A DNA stretch of 24,256 nt, taken from assembly GCA_024278215.1 (NCBI GenBank), contig JAJRTR010000108.1:1-24256 (forward strand). The letters run 5' to 3'. Source of the stretch: a bacterium (GTDB lineage: Bacteria > UBP15 > UBA6099 > JAJRTR01). Each line of letters starts with the position of its first letter. The first letter of the stretch is position 1. A model generated the notes under the pieces. That model saw only the letters and a program-made list of their open reading frames with translations, did no database searches and had not been told where the DNA came from. Shown here in pieces: positions 443-23,218 of the stretch. The position numbers were made by a program, and so were the translations under genes.

Positions 443-471
443 TTGACGTTTTCTGACCGAACGGTTAGTAT
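443..471 (+). promoter_or_regulatory. Sigma-70-type promoter of the TetR/GRE operon
   Basis: TTGACG at 443-448 is followed by a 17-base spacer and TAGTAT at 466-471. Both hexamers are close to the sigma-70 consensus and the spacing is ideal. It points at the TetR gene 67 bases downstream. A palindrome at 453-468 fills the spacer and touches the -10 box, which is the expected place for a repressor site. Confidence 0.65.
453..468. promoter_or_regulatory. TetR-type operator O1
   Basis: The 16-bp sequence ctgaccgaacggttag is an inverted repeat with one mismatched pair (arms ctgaccg and cggttag around aa). It sits between the -35 and -10 boxes, so a bound repressor would block RNA polymerase. GACCG/CGGTC half-sites are common in operators of TetR-family regulators. 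It shares size and 5-prime half with a second palindrome 32 bases downstream. Confidence 0.65.
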
Positions 472-1229: not shown

Positions 1230-3824
1230 ATGAAGGCGGCTGAAAAGACCGAACAGCAAATCAGCGACAGGATACTGCGCCTGCGCGGCAAGTATCGCGA
1301 GGAGACGCCGGAACTCTCCGTCGAGCGAGCGAAGTTTTACACTGAAAGTTGGCGTGCGACACAACACAAAGGGTATTCCAGCGTGAGGCGCGTGGCGCTT
1401 GCCATGAAAAATGTGTATGAGAATATGCACCATTACGTCGATCCTGACGACCGGATAGCAGGCTACTGGACAGAGTTTTTCCTAGGCATGCCCATCGACA
1501 TCGAGAGGGGTGTTTTCAACAGGGTGCTCGAGTCTGAACTCGACAGGAAGGACATGATAGGCTTCCGCATCAGGTCAGTTGCCGGAACGGTGTCATACCT
1601 GATAAAAAAACGTGCGCTGATGGACTTTGTGCAGAACGTGAAAATGACAAGAAAGATGGGACCCCAGCCGATGGACCTCGGCTTCGACACGATGTCGGAG
1701 CGAAAAATCAATAAGTACATTATTTCGTCTTCAAATAAAAGGATTCTTAAAAAGGAACTTATCCCCTATTGGCGCGGCAGGAGCGTCGTCGACAGAGTTG
1801 AAAGAAAAGTGCTTGGTTCCGACTTGCTGAGCGGAGACATGAAGGATTTCAACAAAGGCATCCCCGCGAACACATCGCGCCAGACTTTTATGCTCACGCC
1901 ATGCGCCACTATCGCTTCATACCAGGCGCATGTAATACTCGATTTCGAGAAAATAATTAACACCGGCCTGACGGCAATGAAAGCAGAAGTCGAAGAAAGA
2001 TTGAAGACCGCCGGCCAACTGTCCGGCGAACAGAAAGATTTCCTCGAATCCATGATTATTTCGCTTGACGGTGTGATGATATTCGCCCGGCGACTCGCTG
2101 ATGAAATCGAGTCGGAACTCGACAGGGAAACAACGCCGGAACGCAAGGTGGAACTCGGCCGTATGCTCGAGATATGCCGCAGGGTTCCGCTCGGACCTGC
2201 TACAGGTTTCAGGGAAGCCGTGCAATCCGCATGGACGGTTAAAACCGCAGTCGAACTCGCACATCCGGTAAATCTGCATTGCCTCGGACGCATGGACCGG
2301 ATTTTTTATCCATATTATGAGAAGGATATCGCCGAGGGGCACATCACGCGCGACGAAGTGCGCGATCTCCTGTCGGAACTCCTGCTGAAAATGATGTCGC
2401 AGAACATCAGGCCGGAATCGAATATCCTCAGTAATTTCTATCACCGCTATCTCGGTTCGGCACCGGTGACGATCGGCGGAATAACGCCGGACGGCGACGA
2501 CGGCACAAATGACCTGACATATCTTTTTATCGAAGCGGCGGACGAATCGAGGGCTATAACAAATGTGTCCGTTCGTGTGCATAAAGACACGTCCGACAAA
2601 CTGTACATTGCAGTGGCTGCGGCGCTTCGCAACGGGAGTTCCAACCTGTCGCTTTTCAATGATGACGTGAACATAGAGGCGATGAAGCGGAGGGGATTCG
2701 ACGAGCGCGACGCACGCGACTACGCGATCATGGGTTGTGTCGAGATGCTGTGCCCCGGCAAAACCGGCGGCATGAGCGCCTGCGCGCTGCTTCTCAGCAG
2801 GCTGCTCGACATCACTATGCGTAACGGCGATTCGCAGACACTTCTTGGCAGGATCGACGGCGTCGGACTGCGCACAGGAGACCCGGACACTTTCAAAACA
2901 TTCGACGAATTCCTCGATGCTCTGATCGCGCAGGCCGCACACCAGATAGAGCTGATTGCGGGCGCTTCAGACATGAAGGATGAACTATACGCGAAATATC
3001 TGCCCGCGCCGCTTATCTCCGCGTTTATTGAAGGTTGTCTCGATAACGCAACCGATGTCACGGCGGGCGGGGCCGTATACGACCTTTCCGGCGTGTCGTT
3101 CATCAACAGTATCGCGAATCTTGTCGACTCGGTGTATGTAATTAAGAAACTTATATTCGACGAAAAAGCGATCACTTTTAAAAAATTCATAAAAGCGCTG
3201 GACAGCAACTTCGAGGGCCACGGGAACCTTCTCGCCAGGATCAAGTCGATAGAAGGCAAATGGGGCAATGGCTGCGAGGAGGTCGACCAACTCGCAGCCT
3301 GTATCTCGAAGCGGCTTTTCGATGAAACATACAAATACACTTCATTCCGTGGCGGTCCCTATGTGCCGTACATGATCAGCATGATAACGCACACTATCGA
3401 CGGCCGGGTATCCATCGCGTCGCCCGACGGACGCAGGGCCGCCATGCCCTACGCCGCAAGTTGCAATCCATACAATGTCGAAAAGAGCGGCGTCACCGGC
3501 GCGATGAAATCTGTCGCGGCTATCGACTTCCGGGATGTACTCGGGTGCGCCGTCAATTTCAAATTTCACCCCGGCGCCGTCGGCGGAAACCCCGATACTC
3601 AGCAAAAATGGATTTCCCTTATCAGAACTTACTTTGGCATGGGCGGACAGCAGATTCAGCCCACAGTTGCATCCGCCGAAATGCTGCGAGACGCGCAGGT
3701 CAACCCGTCCGAGTATCGCGATCTAATAGTGAAGGTCGGTGGATACAGTACCTATTTCGTCGATCTCGGCAATGAGATTCAGGAAGAGATAATTGCTCGC
3801 ACCGAACACAATTTCGTAGATTAA
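1230..3824 (+). CDS. Glycyl radical enzyme, pyruvate formate-lyase/dehydratase-like, substrate unknown
   Basis: The 864-residue protein is a full-length member of the PFL-like GRE family. The catalytic loop reads MGCVEMLCPGKTGG, giving thiyl Cys503 and a CxE glutamate at 505, as in diol/choline/glycerol-type eliminases and hydroxyphenylacetate decarboxylase. The C-terminus carries the radical loop VKVGGYSTYFVDL with the radical Gly at 838, then the family ending IIARTEH. Lys replaces the usual Arg in RVxGYS. The frame is open from a GTG at 1206, but GGAGG at 1217-1221 sits 8 bases before ATG 1230, so I use that start. It lies between the TetR gene and a decarboxylase-family gene (37-base gap). 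A radical-SAM activase is required by this family, but none is in the window. It could be a C-O, C-N or C-S lyase or an arylacetate-type decarboxylase; sequence alone does not decide. Confidence 0.9.
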   Translation: MKAAEKTEQQISDRILRLRGKYREETPELSVERAKFYTESWRATQHKGYSSVRRVALAMKNVYENMHHYVDPDDRIAGYWTEFFLGMPIDIERGVFNRVLESELDRKDMIGFRIRSVAGTVSYLIKKRALMDFVQNVKMTRKMGPQPMDLGFDTMSERKINKYIISSSNKRILKKELIPYWRGRSVVDRVERKVLGSDLLSGDMKDFNKGIPANTSRQTFMLTPCATIASYQAHVILDFEKIINTGLTAMKAEVEERLKTAGQLSGEQKDFLESMIISLDGVMIFARRLADEIESELDRETTPERKVELGRMLEICRRVPLGPATGFREAVQSAWTVKTAVELAHPVNLHCLGRMDRIFYPYYEKDIAEGHITRDEVRDLLSELLLKMMSQNIRPESNILSNFYHRYLGSAPVTIGGITPDGDDGTNDLTYLFIEAADESRAITNVSVRVHKDTSDKLYIAVAAALRNGSSNLSLFNDDVNIEAMKRRGFDERDARDYAIMGCVEMLCPGKTGGMSACALLLSRLLDITMRNGDSQTLLGRIDGVGLRTGDPDTFKTFDEFLDALIAQAAHQIELIAGASDMKDELYAKYLPAPLISAFIEGCLDNATDVTAGGAVYDLSGVSFINSIANLVDSVYVIKKLIFDEKAITFKKFIKALDSNFEGHGNLLARIKSIEGKWGNGCEEVDQLAACISKRLFDETYKYTSFRGGPYVPYMISMITHTIDGRVSIASPDGRRAAMPYAASCNPYNVEKSGVTGAMKSVAAIDFRDVLGCAVNFKFHPGAVGGNPDTQQKWISLIRTYFGMGGQQIQPTVASAEMLRDAQVNPSEYRDLIVKVGGYSTYFVDLGNEIQEEIIARTEHNFVD

Positions 3825-3861
3825 TTGCGGATAGAAACACTAATCATACAGGGAGGATTAT

Positions 3862-4632
3862 ATGGGTTTTGTAAGAACAAAAGAGGAGATCGAAAACTAT
3901 TACAAGTTTGCGGTGAGGCGATTCCCCGATTCAAAAATGATAGGAATGATGTATGAGACAGAGCCGGAGATTATCGAGCGACTGCTGCCGCCGCCGCTCG
4001 AACCCGCGGAGGAGACGTGGGCGCTGAGTTATGTCAGTATATTCCCGGATACGAATCTCGGACCCGGCTATCGCGAGAGCGCGCTTTTCATTCGGTGCAG
4101 CTACAAAGGCGAAGTCGGCAACTACTGCCTTTCGATGCCGCTCGACGGAAACGACGACCGGATATTCAACGGACGCGAGATATACGGCTTCCCAAAGAAG
4201 GTAGCGTCTATCAGCCTGTCCCGGAAAGGCAATATCGCCGAGGGATACGTCGAACGCCGTGGAGTGCGTTTCGCTACGCTTAAGGCCGAGCTGATGACGA
4301 AAATGGACGAGCCGCCTCTGAAAACCGGTCCCAGTATGTTGTTCAAGTTCCAGCCGCGCGCCGACCTGAAGCCGGGATTCGAGGGGCCGGTTCTGCTGGT
4401 CAGGCAGAGGACGGAAATCAATTATAAATCATTCGAAATGGGCGCGGGGGAAATAACATTCGAAGTTTCTCCACACGACCCGTGGCACGAAGTCAAATGC
4501 GTTCGTGTGATCGGCGCATATTACTTCACCGGCGATACTATAATGCACCCCGGCGAAGTGCTCACCGAAGTCGACGCAGACGCTTTCCTCCCATATTCAT
4601 TCTCGCGAACAGACTGGGGGTTTGAAAAATGA
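3862..4632 (+). CDS. Acetoacetate decarboxylase-family protein
   Basis: The 256-residue protein matches the acetoacetate decarboxylase (ADC) superfamily in length and core motif. The segment GREIYGFPKK (residues 104-113) corresponds to the ADC segment holding the Schiff-base lysine and its neighbour, so Lys112 is the likely catalytic residue and Lys113 its pKa-lowering partner. A family-like YRES at 70-73 and the GNYCLSMPLD strand precede it. True ADC converts acetoacetate to acetone and CO2 in the cytoplasm; other superfamily members do aldolase or dehydratase chemistry with the same lysine. A strong GGGAGG lies 5 bases before the ATG. Its end overlaps the next start codon by 4 bases (ATGA), so the two proteins are translationally coupled and probably act in one pathway. 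Substrate unknown; a beta-keto acid would be the default expectation. Confidence 0.85.
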   Translation: MGFVRTKEEIENYYKFAVRRFPDSKMIGMMYETEPEIIERLLPPPLEPAEETWALSYVSIFPDTNLGPGYRESALFIRCSYKGEVGNYCLSMPLDGNDDRIFNGREIYGFPKKVASISLSRKGNIAEGYVERRGVRFATLKAELMTKMDEPPLKTGPSMLFKFQPRADLKPGFEGPVLLVRQRTEINYKSFEMGAGEITFEVSPHDPWHEVKCVRVIGAYYFTGDTIMHPGEVLTEVDADAFLPYSFSRTDWGFEK

Positions 4633-5828
4633 TCGATTTCTCTCCGTCGAAAGATCAGACGGAAATACAGAAACTCGCGCGGCGGTTCGCAAAGGAAGTT
4701 ATCCGGCCCGCCGAGATCGAACTCGATAAAATGGCGGACCCCGACGAAGCCTTTGCAAGCGACACGTTTAAAAATGTTATGAAACAGGCCTATGAACTGG
4801 GTTTCCACAAGATGGGGATCCGCGAAGAATTCGGCGGGCTGGGGCTCGACCCCTCGACAACCGGGCTCGTGTGGGAAGAGCTCGCGGTCGGCGGTGTCGG
4901 CATCACCGCCACATTGCTCGCCGCGCCCGTCGCCGTGCTCTTCATCAGCATTCTTGCCGCCGACAGGCAGGATATGGTCGACAAATACGTCATTCCCTAC
5001 TGCGAGGACGACTGCGCCGAGCACATCACCGCGTGGGGCAGTTCCGAAGGCAACATCGGCTCCGACGGCAGCAATTATACAGACAAGAATGTCAGGCACG
5101 AAACGAGGGCCGTGAAAAAAGACGGACACTGGATTATAAACGGCGCGAAATCAAGTTTCGTAAGCAACGGCGGTATAGCCGACCTCTTTCTGCTGTTTGC
5201 GAATGTCGAGCCGGATAAAGGAATCTGCGGTTCCGGCATTTTCCTTGTTCCGCTCGGTGATGGCGTCACACGCGGAAAGGCGATGGACAAGGTCGGAATG
5301 CGCGCGCTGAACCAGGCCGACCTTTCGTTCGACGATGTGAAAATCCCCGAGGATTACATGATATCGCCTCCCGGCGACAACTACCCGATAATGCACAATG
5401 CAATAAAAACAGTCGGCAACATTGGTGTCGGCTACCTTGCCGTCGGTCTCATGCGCGCCGCCTACGTAGAAGCGCTCCAGTATTCGAAGGAGCGTGTGCA
5501 GTTCGGAAAACCGATCAAAGAACATCAGGCGATAATGTTCAAGCTCTTCGAGACATTCCAGGCTATCGAAGCATCGCGCGCACTGCTGTGGAAAGCGTCG
5601 TGGACACTCGCGAAACAGTTTATGGGCGACCTCAAGCTGTCGGCCGCCGCTCGCGTTTTCGCAACCAACAATGCGATGAAGCACACCGTCGAGATGATAC
5701 AGGTGCTTGGCGGATACGGGATTTCCAGGGAATACACAATCGAGAAATACATGCGCGACGCGAAACTTCTCCAGATCATGGACGCAACAAACGAGATCAT
5801 GACCATAAAAGGCGCAGCACTGATGTAG
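4629..5828 (+). CDS. Acyl-CoA dehydrogenase-family flavoprotein with Asp at the catalytic-base position
   Basis: The 399-residue protein has the complete acyl-CoA dehydrogenase fold: an N-terminal helical domain, the middle beta domain (SSEGNIGSDGSNY, 138-150; WIINGAKSSFVSNGG, 168-182), and the C-terminal FAD-binding helices (SKERVQFGKPIKEHQ, 286-300; GGYGISREYTIEKYMRDAK, 361-379). In medium-chain-type enzymes the following stretch reads QIYEGT, with Glu as the base that removes the alpha proton. Here it reads QIMDAT, so Asp385 replaces that Glu. Nitroalkane oxidase, a member of this superfamily, also uses Asp there. The start overlaps the ADC-like stop codon. An electron-transfer flavoprotein partner would be expected, but none is nearby. 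No CoA ligase or transferase lies in the operon, so a CoA-ester substrate is not assured. Confidence 0.88.
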   Translation: MIDFSPSKDQTEIQKLARRFAKEVIRPAEIELDKMADPDEAFASDTFKNVMKQAYELGFHKMGIREEFGGLGLDPSTTGLVWEELAVGGVGITATLLAAPVAVLFISILAADRQDMVDKYVIPYCEDDCAEHITAWGSSEGNIGSDGSNYTDKNVRHETRAVKKDGHWIINGAKSSFVSNGGIADLFLLFANVEPDKGICGSGIFLVPLGDGVTRGKAMDKVGMRALNQADLSFDDVKIPEDYMISPPGDNYPIMHNAIKTVGNIGVGYLAVGLMRAAYVEALQYSKERVQFGKPIKEHQAIMFKLFETFQAIEASRALLWKASWTLAKQFMGDLKLSAAARVFATNNAMKHTVEMIQVLGGYGISREYTIEKYMRDAKLLQIMDATNEIMTIKGAALM

Positions 5829-5908: not shown

Positions 5909-6550
5909 TTATCTGCCCTGGACATCCGAGCCCCATATTATTTTATGCAATTGAATATGCAGTCTGGCCATGAGCCTGTCTTCGAGCATCCATTTGCTCA
6001 ATTCCCTCGGGTCCAGCACACCCATAACAGGCGACATAAGCACTGAACATATCATGTCGAGTTCGTATTCGTCAATCACGTCTACAGCCCATCTGTAATC
6101 GTCGTAGTCCATCATTACGAATTTGACATTGTCCTGCTCGGATATGAAATCGAGGTTGCCGAATATCATCTTTTCGTGCTCGCCGCTTCCGGGGCATTTC
6201 AGGTCCATTACCGTCACCACATCGCCCGGCACTTTGCTGATATCGACGCTCCCGCTTGTCTCGACAAGCACGATATGCCCCAGGTCCATAAGGCGGTTTA
6301 TCAGGTCGAACACATCTTCCTGCAACAGCGGCTCGCCCCCGGTGATCAGCACCGGCGCCACTTCGTACTTTCTCGTGCTTCTGACGATCTGTTCGACAGA
6401 CATTTCTATTCCGTTGTCGTAGGCGTAGTCCGTATCGCAATATGTGCATCGGAGGTTGCAGCCGGTGAGCCTTATGATCGTGCATGGCATGCCTGCGTAA
6501 GTGCTTTCGCCAAGTATGCTGCAAAATATCTCATTGATGCGTATCGGCAT
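5909..6550 (-). CDS. queE: 7-carboxy-7-deazaguanine synthase QueE
   Basis: The 213-residue radical-SAM enzyme rearranges 6-carboxytetrahydropterin to 7-carboxy-7-deazaguanine, the ring-contraction step of queuosine and 7-deazaguanine biosynthesis. The cluster motif CNLRCTYCDTDYAY puts Cys31, Cys35 and Cys38 in a CxxxCxxC pattern followed by DT, a QueE hallmark. VLITGGEPLLQ (67-77) is the SAM-binding GGEP motif, and the C-terminus HIQLHKIIWG is typical of QueE. The frame extends to a TTG at 6601, but ATG 6550 is preceded by GGAG at 6562-6565 and gives the normal N-terminus (INEIFCSILGEST). It is last in a minus-strand run that also contains queA. It is the only radical-SAM gene in the window, but its motifs do not support a role as a GRE activase. 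Confidence 0.93.
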   Translation of the reverse strand: MPIRINEIFCSILGESTYAGMPCTIIRLTGCNLRCTYCDTDYAYDNGIEMSVEQIVRSTRKYEVAPVLITGGEPLLQEDVFDLINRLMDLGHIVLVETSGSVDISKVPGDVVTVMDLKCPGSGEHEKMIFGNLDFISEQDNVKFVMMDYDDYRWAVDVIDEYELDMICSVLMSPVMGVLDPRELSKWMLEDRLMARLHIQLHKIIWGSDVQGR

Positions 6551-6597
6551 AATAATTATTTCTCCGGATAATACGTCCGAGGACACTCCCTGCCGGC

Positions 6598-7944
6598 TCA
6601 ACCCTGCAGTTGTTGCGGCTTTACCGGCAATTTCAGATTTATCAGCGTATAATTCTGTATACTTTTGCTATATAGCAATGTGCTATTATCCTTTATCCTG
6701 CATTCGACGTTACCGTCGTCGCCGAGTGTCAGAGAAATCTTATAATCCCATTCGCCGTCGTATATTCTCACCGGTTTTCCCGTCCACTCCTGAGGCAGAC
6801 ATGGATGGAGCACATATCTGTCGCGGAATTTCAGGAATCCCGCGACCTGCTCGATCAGCATAAGCGCCGCGACAATTCTCGCTATCATGAATTTCGTCGT
6901 TTTCTCGAGTCCCGCTGTATACAGTGCCGCAGACAGCGCATAGCCGGCTCCCTCTTCATAATATCCATACTTTCTGAGTCCATCGGCAACAAGTCTGAAA
7001 AGCGGCGCGACGGACGGCTCGCTTCTCAACAATGTTATCCGGTCGGACACAGCGGGCAACCATTGCATCATTCTCTCCGCCTGCTCTTTTGTCGGTATCT
7101 CCGCCGCCATCGGCAGAAAACCTGACATCGCCATATCCCTCACAACCGTCTCTCCGACAAGGTCATAATAAAAACCGCTGTCTTCGTCCCACATGCTTTC
7201 GTGAATCAATTCGCCGAGCGCACGTGAAGATTCCATGAACTTTTCCGCCGCGTTGTTGTGGCCGAATTTATATGCAAGTTTCGACATTATCTGCATTCTA
7301 CAGGTGTTGAGACTGTTGAACGCAACCGAACGCACTGAGTCCTTCACACCCGACAGGCCGGGATGCGACCGCCTTAATTCGAGTGTCGCCGGATCGCCTG
7401 AAAACTCTGCCGCGGATGTGTGGACATACATTCCTTCGACACTTTTCCTGTGAATGGTCTGCCAGTCGGCGAACTTATTCATGCAATCGAACAGGGTGTC
7501 GCTGTCTCGCAGCTTTCCCAGCATGGCAAGCCGCCATATTGCATTAAAAAGGTATGGACCCGCGCAATAGCCTGTTGTTCGTAACGGACGTATCAAATCA
7601 GGTATTGCGCCCTCGTCCAGTTGATTCTCGAAAAAAAGTGCGGTAAGGTCGTTTTCGATACCGGAATCGTAAAACGAAATAAATTCCGACGCCAGAGCCG
7701 ATTCGGTCGCAGCCGCGACCGGTTCTCCTGTTCCGGACTTCAACCAACGCCTTCTTAGCTTCATCCCGAACGGCATCGAAAGCGATGCTTCTATTTCTCC
7801 TGTCAGCTCTTTCATCATGAGATTCATTTTTTCGTCTGGAACCCTCATGTCGAACTCGCCGGGTGTCAGCCATCTCGAACCAAGGTACCTTCTCACACGG
7901 TTCAACGCTTTCAATGATGTATTAAAAAATATATCGTCCATCAT
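6598..7944 (-). CDS. Six-hairpin glycosidase-like protein
   Basis: The 448-residue cytoplasmic protein has no signal peptide or membrane segment. It looks like the (alpha/alpha)6-barrel group that includes trehalase, GH63 and related glucosidases. MWDEDSGFYYDL (251-262) matches the family motif in which a loaded helix is followed by GFYYD. SGFLPMAAEIPTKEQAERM (274-292) matches the usual 'P(L)..G..T.EQAE' repeat. The end PCLPQEWTGKPVRI (381-394) resembles the C-terminal beta segment of GH94/GH65-type enzymes. I cannot place the catalytic acid and base with certainty, and the family and sugar substrate are unknown. It starts 115 bases after queA and ends 47 bases before queE, so it is probably co-transcribed with the queuosine genes although no functional link is obvious. 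Start ATG 7944 has a modest GGA-rich site. Confidence 0.6.
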   Translation of the reverse strand: MMDDIFFNTSLKALNRVRRYLGSRWLTPGEFDMRVPDEKMNLMMKELTGEIEASLSMPFGMKLRRRWLKSGTGEPVAAATESALASEFISFYDSGIENDLTALFFENQLDEGAIPDLIRPLRTTGYCAGPYLFNAIWRLAMLGKLRDSDTLFDCMNKFADWQTIHRKSVEGMYVHTSAAEFSGDPATLELRRSHPGLSGVKDSVRSVAFNSLNTCRMQIMSKLAYKFGHNNAAEKFMESSRALGELIHESMWDEDSGFYYDLVGETVVRDMAMSGFLPMAAEIPTKEQAERMMQWLPAVSDRITLLRSEPSVAPLFRLVADGLRKYGYYEEGAGYALSAALYTAGLEKTTKFMIARIVAALMLIEQVAGFLKFRDRYVLHPCLPQEWTGKPVRIYDGEWDYKISLTLGDDGNVECRIKDNSTLLYSKSIQNYTLINLKLPVKPQQLQG

Positions 7945-8059: not shown

Positions 8060-9112
8060 TCAATATATCAGCATCGCGTCGCCGAAACTGTAAAAACGGT
8101 ATTTCAGGTCGATAGCTTTTCTGTACGATTCAAGGATGAATTCGCGGCCCGCGAAAGCGCTAACAAGCGCCAGCAGAGTCGAGCGCGGGAGATGAAAATT
8201 TGTAATAAGCGCATCGACGATTTTAAATTGCTCGCGTCTGTAGATAAAGATATCCGTAGGGCCGCTTCGTCCCGTGGGCGACTCGATCCACTCGATTTTC
8301 GGGCGACCCGCCGCCCAGCTCTCCAGACTGCGAACCGCTGTTGTTCCCACGGCGATTATCCTTCCGCCCGCCGCGGCGGTTTCACATATTATTTCGGCAG
8401 TTCTGTCGGGTACATTGAAATATTCAGTGTGCATCCTGTGTTCTTCGAGCGTTTCCGTGTCGACAGGCCTGAATGTGTCTATACCGATGTGAAGCGTAAC
8501 CGCCGCGAAATCTACGCCCATCGACTTCACGCTGCCTATCAGGTCCTTCGTGAAGTGCAGCCCCGCCGTTGGTGCGGCGGTCGAGCCGGTGTTTTTCGCA
8601 TATACGGTCTGGTAGCGTTCGGGATCGTCGATGCTTTTCTTTATATATGGCGGCAAGGGTGTCGCGCCGTACTTTTCGAGGAAAGATATTACAGCTCCTT
8701 CCGGAACCTCCACGATACATATACCTCGCTCGCGTTTCTCACGCACGATACAGAACGGCGACTTCATTGATTCGTGGAAAAGCTCCGTACCTTCCTTCAA
8801 TCTTTTACCGGGCCTCGCGAGCGCTTTCCACATGCAGGGTTTCGTGTTATCTTCATTCAGGAATAAAAGCTCGATTTTCGCGCCCGTGCTCTTATGAACG
8901 AAAAGACGCGCCGGAAAAACTTTCGATTCATTAACCACAAGCAGATCGCCCGCGCGAAGGTATTCCGGCAGATCATAAAAATGCCTGTCGGCTATGGCCC
9001 GGCCTCTTCTGTCGAGCGCGAGAAGTCTCGAAGCCTTCCTGTCCGCAAGAGGTTCCTGCGCGATATATTCCCCGGGAAGATCGTAATCGTAGAGACTCGT
9101 TTCATGTGCCAA
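8060..9112 (-). CDS. queA: S-adenosylmethionine:tRNA ribosyltransferase-isomerase QueA
   Basis: The 350-residue protein transfers the ribosyl part of SAM to 7-aminomethyl-7-deazaguanine in tRNA, forming epoxyqueuosine. The N-terminus LYDYDLPGEYIAQEP, the segment LLVVNESKVFPARL, the histidine-containing TAGLHF region, HIGIDTFRPV and the C-terminus SFGDAMLIY are all QueA signatures, and length is normal. The start codon is TTG at 9112: no ATG or GTG lies between it and the conserved N-terminus, and AGGAG stands about 10 bases upstream inside the end of the preceding gene. Only 6 bases separate it from the DUF2905-type gene upstream. It works downstream of QueE in the same pathway. Neither queC, queD nor queF is in the window. 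Confidence 0.96.
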   Translation of the reverse strand: MAHETSLYDYDLPGEYIAQEPLADRKASRLLALDRRGRAIADRHFYDLPEYLRAGDLLVVNESKVFPARLFVHKSTGAKIELLFLNEDNTKPCMWKALARPGKRLKEGTELFHESMKSPFCIVREKRERGICIVEVPEGAVISFLEKYGATPLPPYIKKSIDDPERYQTVYAKNTGSTAAPTAGLHFTKDLIGSVKSMGVDFAAVTLHIGIDTFRPVDTETLEEHRMHTEYFNVPDRTAEIICETAAAGGRIIAVGTTAVRSLESWAAGRPKIEWIESPTGRSGPTDIFIYRREQFKIVDALITNFHLPRSTLLALVSAFAGREFILESYRKAIDLKYRFYSFGDAMLIY

Positions 9113-20746: not shown

Positions 20747-23146
20747 TTAAAAGGAAGTTGACATATTATCGAGTCGCGGGATGATATCCCTGCATAGAAT
20801 GTCTGGGGAAAGATGGCGCGCATCGCCGTATTGTCCGTGAATCCTGACAAGTACCGGCTCCGGGTAGTTTTCAGGATGTTCCATTACGTCAAAAAGCGTG
20901 TCTGCGGAGAATACGTTGAAATAAGCGTACATGAGTGTCGGTTTCACAGGTTCCACGAAGCCGAAAACGGCAGAGATCACATCTGTGAGGTAATCGGCCT
21001 TTTCCTCGATCGTTTTTCCATTCAGCGGATCGGGATTGATGCTTAGAGCGACTGCGCTGCCGCCCGACATCACGGCGTAATTAAGTTTCGACTGGCTTGC
21101 GATACGCGACAGCAGCCCTTTTCTGCCTGCTCCGACAACCGGGTCGAGTCCGTAGTTCAGGGCTTCGCGTGCCTTCCTGCCGTCGGGTGTGGCACCTGTC
21201 CACCAGCCGTAAAGAAGATTAGTGCTTGGAGTGCTCCAGTCCGCGCAGAAATTGTTGCCGAGCGGATTTGTGAGTTTGTTGACCAGCGTGCTCACACGCT
21301 CCTGAAGTTCGACAACTTCCGTATCCGCCGCCACATCATTATTTCCATATTTCGGCGCGACACGTCGAACGATGTCGCGGATTTCATTACGGTTCTCATA
21401 ATTCACAGCAACAGCTTCCAATAAATCCGTGACCGACACTCCGAACAACCGTTCGACATCCTTTTCGAGAAAGGCAAGGGCAGAGAAAGAGTCGGCGACA
21501 TTGGCAAGACCGTGTATCAGGCAGCCGGAGGCGTTATACTTCGTGCCCTGTTCGTCGGTCGAACGCATGTCGACGCCGGTCTCCCGCGCGCCCATGAATG
21601 CAGATTTGAAAGGCACGGGAAGCAGGGAAAGCGCTTCTGTGCATCCATTGGCAGCCTCGCGCATACGGCATAGATAATAGTCGAGATATTTATAGAACCT
21701 GTCTTTCAATCTATGAAGCGAGTCGACATGAGAATGGCCGATGCCGAGTTCGGCAGGCGGCGGGCCGATCTGCTTTCCGGTTATCGTTGACATGCCGCCG
21801 GTGATTGCGAGTTCGAGAACCTTCGCGAGATTCAGCCAGCTATTTGTCGTATTTGCGTTTTCCATGCCCATCACAAGCGGTTCCTGGCAGCCTGCGATAC
21901 CATACAGCGGCATATCCTTTTTTTCGATTCCTTTCGTTTCCATCGCGCTGAATATGACGGGATCACTGAAAAACGACGGCGTGCTATGTCCGAAATCGAA
22001 CATGAATTCGGCGATTTTCCTGTAGAATTGTATCGGTGTCGCAGGGTGTATTTTCACAGAAAGGTTTGGCTGCGAATAATTCGACTGCGCGAATGCGTCC
22101 ATGATTACATAAGACATATCACACGTCATGTCGCCGCTGTCGCGGTCCATGCCTCCGACCATGATATTCTGGGATATTGCCCAGTTGCGGTCGCCTGTGC
22201 AGAAGAACGCCAGCAGGTGGCGGACAAGCTGCACCGCCAGGTCATAGTCCAGCTTATCTTTGTCGTAGTAGGGCTGTAGAATCCTGTCGAGGTTGCCGAC
22301 AGAAAACGCGAAAGGATTCGGGCCCTGCTCGAGGTTCATCACCTGCCACAGGATAATATAGGACTGTATCGCTTCGTAGAGATTTCCGGCGGGCCGCGCG
22401 GGTACCTTTGTGCATGTGTCGGCGATCAGTAGAAGTTCCGCCCTTCTTTCCGCGCTCTTCTCATCCGCGGCCAGCCCGCCGGCCAGAGTGCTGTAGCGGC
22501 GCGCGAGCACAACGGCGCAACCAAGCGCGGTTTTCATCGCTTCGTAATAATCGCCATGCTTATTATCCTGTTCCTGTCGTGCGCTGATCTCCTCTATAAG
22601 GCATTCGATGCCGCGCTTCATCGCGTCGCGAAAATCAGGTATCGTGTGCCCCGTGACCCGCTCGACGAAAAAAACGGCTTCCGCCGTGTCGCCGCCCGCC
22701 GCATCGTAAACTGCACTGATTTTTTTCGCGAACGGCTGCGCAGCCCAGAAGTCGCGCACCCTGTCGATTCTGTCCTGTGTTATTGTTGCGCCGTCAGGTT
22801 TAATATCATTGTATACAGCATCTTCGTCGCAGTAGCCTTCGAAATTTTCGACTTTGAAACCGGGATTTATCAGTGCATAGCTGCAAGCGAAAGCGTCGTC
22901 TTCCGTGCCGGCGAAAACCTCGCCGGCCCTGATGCTCAAGGGAAGTTTTTCGACGACATCCTCGAGCAGGAGCGCCTGTGTCGTCGCGGGCGAATACTTT
23001 CCGTCGATCTCCTCGAGCCGGTTCATCATGATCTCGCGCGACAGGAACCAGCCGTCGAGACGCGACGTTTTCCTGTTCTGTTCCTGAATCACGTCGATGT
23101 ACTTGTCGAGCCGCACCGTGTCGAGAGTATCATTGAAAGCGGGCAT
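20747..23146 (-). CDS. Divergent glycyl radical enzyme with atypical radical loop
   Basis: The 799-residue protein is a PFL-like GRE only distantly similar to the one at 1230. Family landmarks are NPFAFSVGNLDRILQPYY (277-294), the active loop YGIAGCQEPLVMG with thiyl Cys420 and a CxE glutamate at 422, and WWTGATPDGRKAREALNYG (648-666). The C-terminal loop reads VLVRIHGQYGDARHLS; aligned to the consensus RVxGYSA, Arg768 and Gly771 are kept but the following Tyr-Ser-Ala is replaced by Gln-Tyr-Gly-Asp-Ala. Gly771 is 28 residues from the end, the normal distance for the radical glycine. The frame runs up to a TTG at 23194, but GGAGG 7 bases before ATG 23146 decides the start. It follows trxB by 72 bases. 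No activase is nearby. CxE suggests an eliminase; substrate unknown. Confidence 0.88.
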   Translation of the reverse strand: MPAFNDTLDTVRLDKYIDVIQEQNRKTSRLDGWFLSREIMMNRLEEIDGKYSPATTQALLLEDVVEKLPLSIRAGEVFAGTEDDAFACSYALINPGFKVENFEGYCDEDAVYNDIKPDGATITQDRIDRVRDFWAAQPFAKKISAVYDAAGGDTAEAVFFVERVTGHTIPDFRDAMKRGIECLIEEISARQEQDNKHGDYYEAMKTALGCAVVLARRYSTLAGGLAADEKSAERRAELLLIADTCTKVPARPAGNLYEAIQSYIILWQVMNLEQGPNPFAFSVGNLDRILQPYYDKDKLDYDLAVQLVRHLLAFFCTGDRNWAISQNIMVGGMDRDSGDMTCDMSYVIMDAFAQSNYSQPNLSVKIHPATPIQFYRKIAEFMFDFGHSTPSFFSDPVIFSAMETKGIEKKDMPLYGIAGCQEPLVMGMENANTTNSWLNLAKVLELAITGGMSTITGKQIGPPPAELGIGHSHVDSLHRLKDRFYKYLDYYLCRMREAANGCTEALSLLPVPFKSAFMGARETGVDMRSTDEQGTKYNASGCLIHGLANVADSFSALAFLEKDVERLFGVSVTDLLEAVAVNYENRNEIRDIVRRVAPKYGNNDVAADTEVVELQERVSTLVNKLTNPLGNNFCADWSTPSTNLLYGWWTGATPDGRKAREALNYGLDPVVGAGRKGLLSRIASQSKLNYAVMSGGSAVALSINPDPLNGKTIEEKADYLTDVISAVFGFVEPVKPTLMYAYFNVFSADTLFDVMEHPENYPEPVLVRIHGQYGDARHLSPDILCRDIIPRLDNMSTSF

Positions 23147-23218
23147 AAAGCAACCTCCGCCGAACATCAGTTTATTATCCCGCATAATTTGCAATTGGCT
23201 CGCGGGTAATACTTATAC

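Follow-up and report, generated by a model that had tools for sequence, protein, structure and literature searches.

The 24,256-bp window analyzed here, which is the whole of contig C81 in the 4.55-Mb, 207-contig assembly of a bacterium of the phylum UBP15, encodes a glycyl radical enzyme (GRE) between a TetR-family regulator and two further enzymes, an acetoacetate decarboxylase (ADC)-like protein and an acyl-coenzyme A (CoA) dehydrogenase (ACAD)-like flavoprotein. These genes very probably belong to an anaerobic degradation route that has so far gone undescribed. An earlier note on this DNA had proposed an uncharacterized catabolic operon, and our analysis bears this out: its parts co-occur in many genomes, and the GRE groups with no named family. 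No description of a GRE-ADC-ACAD gene cluster was found in the full-text open literature, a body of text that excludes most subscription papers and preprints; one review mentions GRE, ADC, and SDR once each. The observation is confirmed, and we read the genes as a GRE-initiated catabolic module that is built on an uncharacterized GRE family and widely scattered across phyla.

The four genes of the operon are all full length, tightly packed, and on the forward strand, and gene calls and Pfam domains agree with the compact order behind the regulator that the earlier note had described. The TetR/AcrR-family repressor (positions 538 to 1203, +; 221 amino acids; TetR_N, E = 1.3e-15) is followed by the eliminase-like GRE (1230 to 3824, +). 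The GRE open reading frame (ORF) opens at a GTG at 1206 and stops at 3824; the ATG at 1230 is the likelier start because GGAGG precedes it. The ADC-superfamily gene (3862 to 4632, +; 256 amino acids; Pfam ADC, E = 1.5e-50) also has GGAGG upstream, and its reading frame shares the four bases ATGA (4629 to 4632) with that of the ACAD-superfamily flavoprotein (4629 to 5828, +; 399 amino acids), in which the Pfam ACAD N, M, and C-terminal domains are all present.

We scanned contigs of named genomes with a GRE alignment and obtained 57 loci. At GC-rich loci (L076 and L118), ORF calling had missed ADC and ACAD genes beneath antisense ORFs, and the counts were redone with tblastn. The genes inherited together outnumber the trio of enzymes first proposed: the set comprises five enzymes and an activase, of which the epimerase, short-chain dehydrogenase/reductase (SDR), and activase are encoded elsewhere in the source genome. 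The GRE occurs with ADC, ACAD, an HpnA-like NAD-epimerase, an SDR, and often an activase in UBP15 relatives, Syntrophomonadaceae, Myxococcota, and Actinomycetota. Within the small phylum UBP15, GRE and ADC were found in 7 of 7 genomes (the source and six others) and are adjacent wherever contigs allow. In four of these relatives (L046 to L049), SDR and NAD-epimerase genes are divergent from TetR-GRE-ADC-ACAD, with the SDR of L049 beyond the contig end; in genome G002 (L051), a GRE activase directly follows ACAD. At the equivalent position, both UBP15 relatives and Syntrophomonadaceae have TetR orthologs (49 to 55%).

Complete five-enzyme sets were detected in UBP15, Syntrophomonadaceae (L083), a deltaproteobacterial locus placed in Myxococcota (L079), two contigs of one Myxococcota-side genome that are jointly complete (L119/L122), and Actinomycetota (L107 and L118); the sets at L076 and L080 are partial and reach contig ends. 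In Planctomycetota (L078) and Hydrogenedentota (L116), the GRE is accompanied by an epimerase-SDR fusion, and the genome of L116 carries ADC-ACAD at a separate place (L155). Fusions of this kind, about 600 amino acids long (L079:12540-14348, L116:12561-14363, L078:12558-14417, and L122:1482-3287), occur in some Myxococcota-side, Hydrogenedentota, and Planctomycetota genomes. Bacterial ADC and ACAD genes are adjacent wherever both stretches are complete. The survey of neighborhoods proposed in the earlier note thus found the set recurring across phyla; a chance neighborhood was rejected on this ground. GREs of the family, counting either of the two clades described below, are rare elsewhere (23 of 227 genomes in the Asgard phylum; 7 of 395 in the phylum to which the Desulfobacterales record belongs), and we infer from the patchy distribution that the module spread by horizontal transfer.

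By sequence, the GRE belongs to a distinct and uncharacterized family. It has the hallmarks of the glycyl radical superfamily, namely PFL-like and Gly_radical domains, a G-Y-S loop, and a catalytic cysteine (Cys511 and Glu513 in GCVE and Gly846 in the VKVGGYS loop, ORF numbering). Our tree of 76 GREs was a quick one with Shimodaira-Hasegawa-like approximate likelihood ratio support only, and conclusions from it are limited to the family clade and its split into clades A and B. The family GREs form one clade (support 98) apart from the CutC, HypD, Pdu-type, YbiW, and TdcE references; L028, L034, TdcE, and a second GRE of the window are distant rows on long branches. Clade A (26 rows; support 95) contains the window GRE and every GRE with an ADC neighbor, whereas members of clade B (31 rows; support 83) neighbor an activase and sometimes a second GRE. 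An ADC gene was present in the flank examined at 18 of 27 clade A loci, compared with 0 of 29 for clade B plus two Spirochaetota outliers (Fisher P = 2e-8, kinship ignored). Among the 17 genomes sampled that have a clade A GRE, module-type ADC was found in 14, one of these being cut by a contig end. VKVGGYS is a signature of the family and GCVExxCPGKT one of clade A; in L078 and clade B, Asp takes the place of Glu513. Clade B, with its GCVD motif, is likewise uncharacterized (L084, L085, L086, L081, L082, and L053 to L056) and includes several tandem GRE pairs with one activase. Genes for an FGGY kinase, Fe-ADH, DeoC-like aldolase, or GPH symporter accompany several clade B loci, and these sugar-type genes are in keeping with a polyol-type elimination.

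Both sequence and fold favor an eliminase-like GRE. Profile scores were 430 to 493 bits for CutC, propanediol and glycerol dehydratases, HypD, HpsG, and IseG, 240 to 367 bits for decarboxylases, and 251 to 261 bits for X-succinate synthases. Among NCBIfam models, the PFL2/dehydratase subfamily scored 483 bits and HpsG was the second-best profile (442), with IAD at 287 and HPAD at 224; the equivalog models for CutC, HypD, HpsG/HpfG, PflD, IAD, and HPAD, spanning 224 to 442 bits, all fell short of cutoffs of 1000 to 1150. Assignment to a known equivalog was rejected on these cutoffs and on tree position, and tight clustering with a known enzyme was seen neither in the tree nor in the NCBIfam scores. 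In outline agreement with the profiles, the top Foldseek matches of the GRE model (predicted local distance difference test, 85; predicted template modeling [TM] score, 0.89) are glycerol and propanediol dehydratases; the glycerol/1,2-propanediol dehydratases, CutC, and HypD have the same fold (TM about 0.80 to 0.83 on the query, 24 to 28% identity). Like GRE eliminases, the module GRE has the thiyl Cys/Glu of GCVE and a separate radical S-adenosylmethionine (SAM) activase, and its His242 aligns with His164 of glycerol dehydratase. Unlike them, it has a second conserved cysteine in GCVExxCPGKT, VKVGGYS in place of the R-V-x-G-Y-S radical loop, and no microcompartment genes among its recurrent neighbors. 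The CxE site that the earlier note had read as that of an eliminase/decarboxylase is present but does not discriminate between the two; it is the profile and fold scores that tip the choice toward an eliminase.

The remaining genes of the module were located on other contigs of the source genome. Contig C38 (4.8 kb) carries the epimerase ortholog (62%), a second TetR gene (51%) divergent from it, and the SDR (59%) behind the epimerase. In the window, positions 1 to 440, at the contig end just before the tetR promoter, contain no clear gene; relatives have the divergent epimerase-SDR pair there. A sigma-70-like pattern, TTGACG-17-TAGTAT (443 to 471, +), is the candidate promoter of the tetR-GRE-ADC-ACAD transcript, although the pattern is weak alone (3 matches versus 5.3 expected in shuffles). 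Predicted TetR operator 1, CTGACCGAACGGTTAG (453 to 468), lies inside its -35/-10 spacer, a place for a repressor, and predicted operator 2, CTGACCGGATGGTCAG (485 to 500), lies upstream of tetR; the predicted motif is TGACCGWWCGGTYA. Only three sites in the 4.55-Mb genome match the pattern GACCGRWYGGTYAG perfectly: window positions 455 to 468 and 487 to 500 and C38 positions 2601 to 2614, the last at the TetR/epimerase-SDR locus. Matches with one mismatch numbered 8 genome-wide, versus 8 for a reversed control. Because all three exact copies fall at C81 and C38, the two loci look like one split regulon. Paired palindromes about 30 bp apart also occur in L050, L083 (Syntrophomonadaceae), L047, and L066, in the same intergenic region in L047, L050, and L083, and a similar hexamer-operator layout is readable in L050 and L083. 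The predicted palindromic operator in the regulator's own promoter, as expected of a TetR autorepressor, is thus conserved in relatives.

The source genome encodes four GREs and an equal number of GRE activases. Both GREs that lie outside the window have an activase partner (C141 and C151), which leaves two orphan activases, on C107 and C64, to serve the pair of GREs in the window. In phylogeny, the C107 activase, unlike that of C64, falls among the activases belonging to this GRE family (support 95/98), and the genome carries only one GRE of the family. By elimination and phylogeny, the C107 orphan is likely the activase of the operon GRE. The possibility raised in the earlier note that activation genes lie elsewhere is thus upheld in one sense, for the activase along with the epimerase and SDR. 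Neither a CoA ligase nor a transferase was seen in the window, in line with the same note. Nor was a conserved CoA ligase found in the bacterial clusters, and so the module may use non-thioester chemistry.

All five module enzymes score below their NCBIfam equivalog cutoffs (epimerase and SDR scored from the L107 copies). The ADC-like protein scores 69 bits against a cutoff of 150. It keeps the lysine pair previously noted in FPKK, as Lys112, the Schiff-base residue, and Lys113, which with Glu72 correspond to Lys115/Lys116 and Glu76 of acetoacetate decarboxylase; Lys112 and Glu72 are invariant, and Lys113 is present in 12 of 13 aligned members, the exception being L079. These residues and the fold (TM about 0.7 to 0.77) are common to the ADC superfamily, including ADC, MppR, a Streptomyces aldolase-dehydratase, and Swit_4259. 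In contrast, the equivalents of Arg29 and Glu61, which have roles in the Clostridium acetobutylicum acetoacetate decarboxylase, are lost: their columns hold Ser24 and Ser56 (alignment to chain 3bh2) and are not Arg/Glu across module members. Residues 103 to 110, just before the lysine pair, are poorly modeled. MppR and the Streptomyces aldolase-dehydratase, both of which match in structure, illustrate that the ADC fold also supports Schiff-base chemistry without decarboxylation. The ACAD-like protein shares its three domains with acyl-CoA dehydrogenases such as AcrC, cyclohexane-1-carbonyl-CoA dehydrogenase, and their relatives (best profile AcrC, 210 bits; cutoff 640). The altered base remarked on earlier was recovered: MDAT replaces the YEGT of known ACADs, with Asp385 in place of the catalytic Glu, and all 9 module members compared have this Asp (M-D-A/G-T). 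Known ACADs thus differ in their catalytic Glu from the module ACAD, whose bacterial module has no CoA-activating gene. The NAD-epimerase resembles HpnA/SdmB-like proteins (233 bits, HpnA) and the SDR resembles PRK06181-like proteins (211 bits).

Together, these results suggest a TetR-held anaerobic module in which radical 1,2-elimination by the GRE is followed by epimerase/SDR, ADC, and ACAD steps, an explanation to which we assign a probability of roughly 0.45, a little short of even. TetR would repress the module until the substrate or an intermediate switches it on, and the C107 radical-SAM activase would install the glycyl radical. The GRE would then act on a free, non-thioester hydroxylated compound, eliminating water or another leaving group beside a hydroxyl-bearing carbon to give a carbonyl product. 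The C38 NAD-epimerase and SDR may interconvert alcohol and ketone groups; Lys112 of ADC would form a Schiff base with the resulting keto acid and cleave a C-C bond, by decarboxylation or retro-aldol reaction; and the flavoprotein may carry out alpha,beta-desaturation or its reverse. What the sequences show directly is the gene content, its joint inheritance, the common operator, and the conservation of catalytic residues; we infer the reaction types and their order, elimination from the kinship and fold of the GRE and the redox, C-C cleavage, and desaturation steps from the chemistry of the respective families.

Several observations weigh against this scheme. The columns of His281, Ser282, and Asp447, the diol-binding residues of glycerol dehydratase, hold Asn356, Leu357, and Ala525 in the module GRE by alignment, unlike in a glycerol/propanediol dehydratase; with these residues gone, the substrate may differ from any known GRE substrate. 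In Loki- and Helarchaeia, GRE and ADC are joined not by ACAD but by a FAD_binding_4 flavoprotein and a CCG/Fe-S protein, which in their arrangement resemble the glycolate/lactate oxidase subunits GlcD/GlcF; module-type ACAD was not found in these archaea, and no module-type epimerase or SDR was seen near the Lokiarchaeia GRE or ADC. ACAD, epimerase, and SDR are therefore not essential to the core. In genomes G050 and G059, the ADC-ACAD pair is present but is accompanied, at other places in the genome, by clade B-like GREs only, and so the pair can serve without a clade A GRE and may be a sub-module able to draw its substrate from another source. Finally, no neighboring gene names the substrate.

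Clues to the substrate come from other genomes; no transporter, sugar gene, or methyltransferase of the kinds described here was found at the source genome's own locus. At four loci (L083, L107 and L118 of Actinomycetota, and L157 of Desulfobacterales), TauE/SafE permease genes stand no more than a few kilobases from the module, a homolog occurs in the deltaproteobacterium L164, and L157 also has an MFS carrier; these permeases and the MFS carrier suggest that the substrate is an organic anion. A polyol or sugar acid is suggested by the GPH symporters of L083 and L165, together with the clade B sugar genes. The permeases would also fit a GRE that acts as a lyase on C-S or C-X bonds, with an organosulfonate or similar anion as its substrate and TauE/SafE exporting sulfite or another product, and HpsG is the second-best NCBIfam profile. 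However, every family score is far under its cutoff, TauE/SafE permeases transport various anions, and no TauE match was found in the window or the UBP15 stretches examined (dissimilatory sulfite genes were not searched for), which leaves such a lyase unlikely. A corrinoid system raises another alternative, in which a URO-D-type methyltransferase demethylates an O-methylated polyol or aromatic substrate and the GRE acts on the product or cleaves an ether. The methyltransferase (URO-D with an N-terminal CGDB-like domain, 59 to 100% identity) was found in 8 of 29 genomes searched; with a corrinoid protein it adjoins the GRE in Lokiarchaeia L070, L077, L112, and L115 and Actinomycetota L118, and it lies just downstream of the module in L083. 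This system suggests that some organisms meet the substrate methylated; as a general account it is improbable, the gene being absent from the source genome and 5 of 6 UBP15 relatives, with no aromatic pathway genes alongside. In L070 (12575 to 14077) and L118 (8322 to 9857), the methyltransferase has a CGDB/HMG-CoA_red_N-like domain fused N-terminally to URO-D.

The GRE might instead be a decarboxylase of the arylacetate or 4-hydroxyphenylacetate type, with the module degrading an aromatic acid. The GCxE motif is common to that group, and CoA-ligase-like proteins lie near some archaeal ADC loci. The decarboxylases, however, give the lowest scores among CxE-type GREs, as the IAD, HPAD, and profile values above illustrate against the 483 bits of PFL2/dehydratase, and no aromatic-acid genes recur beside bacterial modules; we consider this very unlikely. 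Extremely improbable is a fumarate-adding enzyme like alkyl- or benzylsuccinate synthase. The pairing of ACAD and GRE genes is reminiscent of benzylsuccinyl-CoA dehydrogenase, and the family is present in Loki- and Helarchaeia. Yet X-succinate synthases score about half as high as eliminases and lower by fold as well, the GCVE glutamate is kept, closest kinship is not to BssA/MasD, and no small accessory subunit genes recur beside the GRE among listed ORFs of at least 100 amino acids. Fumarate addition has been proposed as a route of hydrocarbon degradation in Asgard archaea (PMC8163825).

Elsewhere in the window, a queE-like gene (5909 to 6601, -) is next after ACAD and convergent to the operon, and two genes beyond it, on the same strand, a QueA-like protein is encoded (8060 to 9112, -; read by eye). 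The second GRE (20747 to 23194, -; 815 amino acids) is at most 29% identical to the GREs with which it was compared. Its radical loop is unusual, reading VRIHGQYGDARHLS in place of RVxGYSxxF, and it has AGCQEP at the thiyl cysteine; the C64 orphan is its probable activase.

GREs have repeatedly proved to be entry points to unknown anaerobic metabolism, as for choline, hydroxyproline, isethionate, and sulfopropanediol. Tentatively, and with well under even confidence, the module described here could be a self-contained, CoA-free pathway in several bacterial phyla, reduced in Asgard archaea, whose entry enzyme is a GRE for a class of substrates that GREs are not known to use; the ADC-fold lyase that follows would have a new specificity, and the ACAD-fold enzyme would work on a non-thioester. 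The fixed partners of the GRE in UBP15, Myxococcota, Actinomycetota, Bacillota, and Asgard archaea point to a carbon source of sediment and digester anaerobes that is off current pathway maps, and the six defined proteins and the predicted operator provide a handle for finding it.

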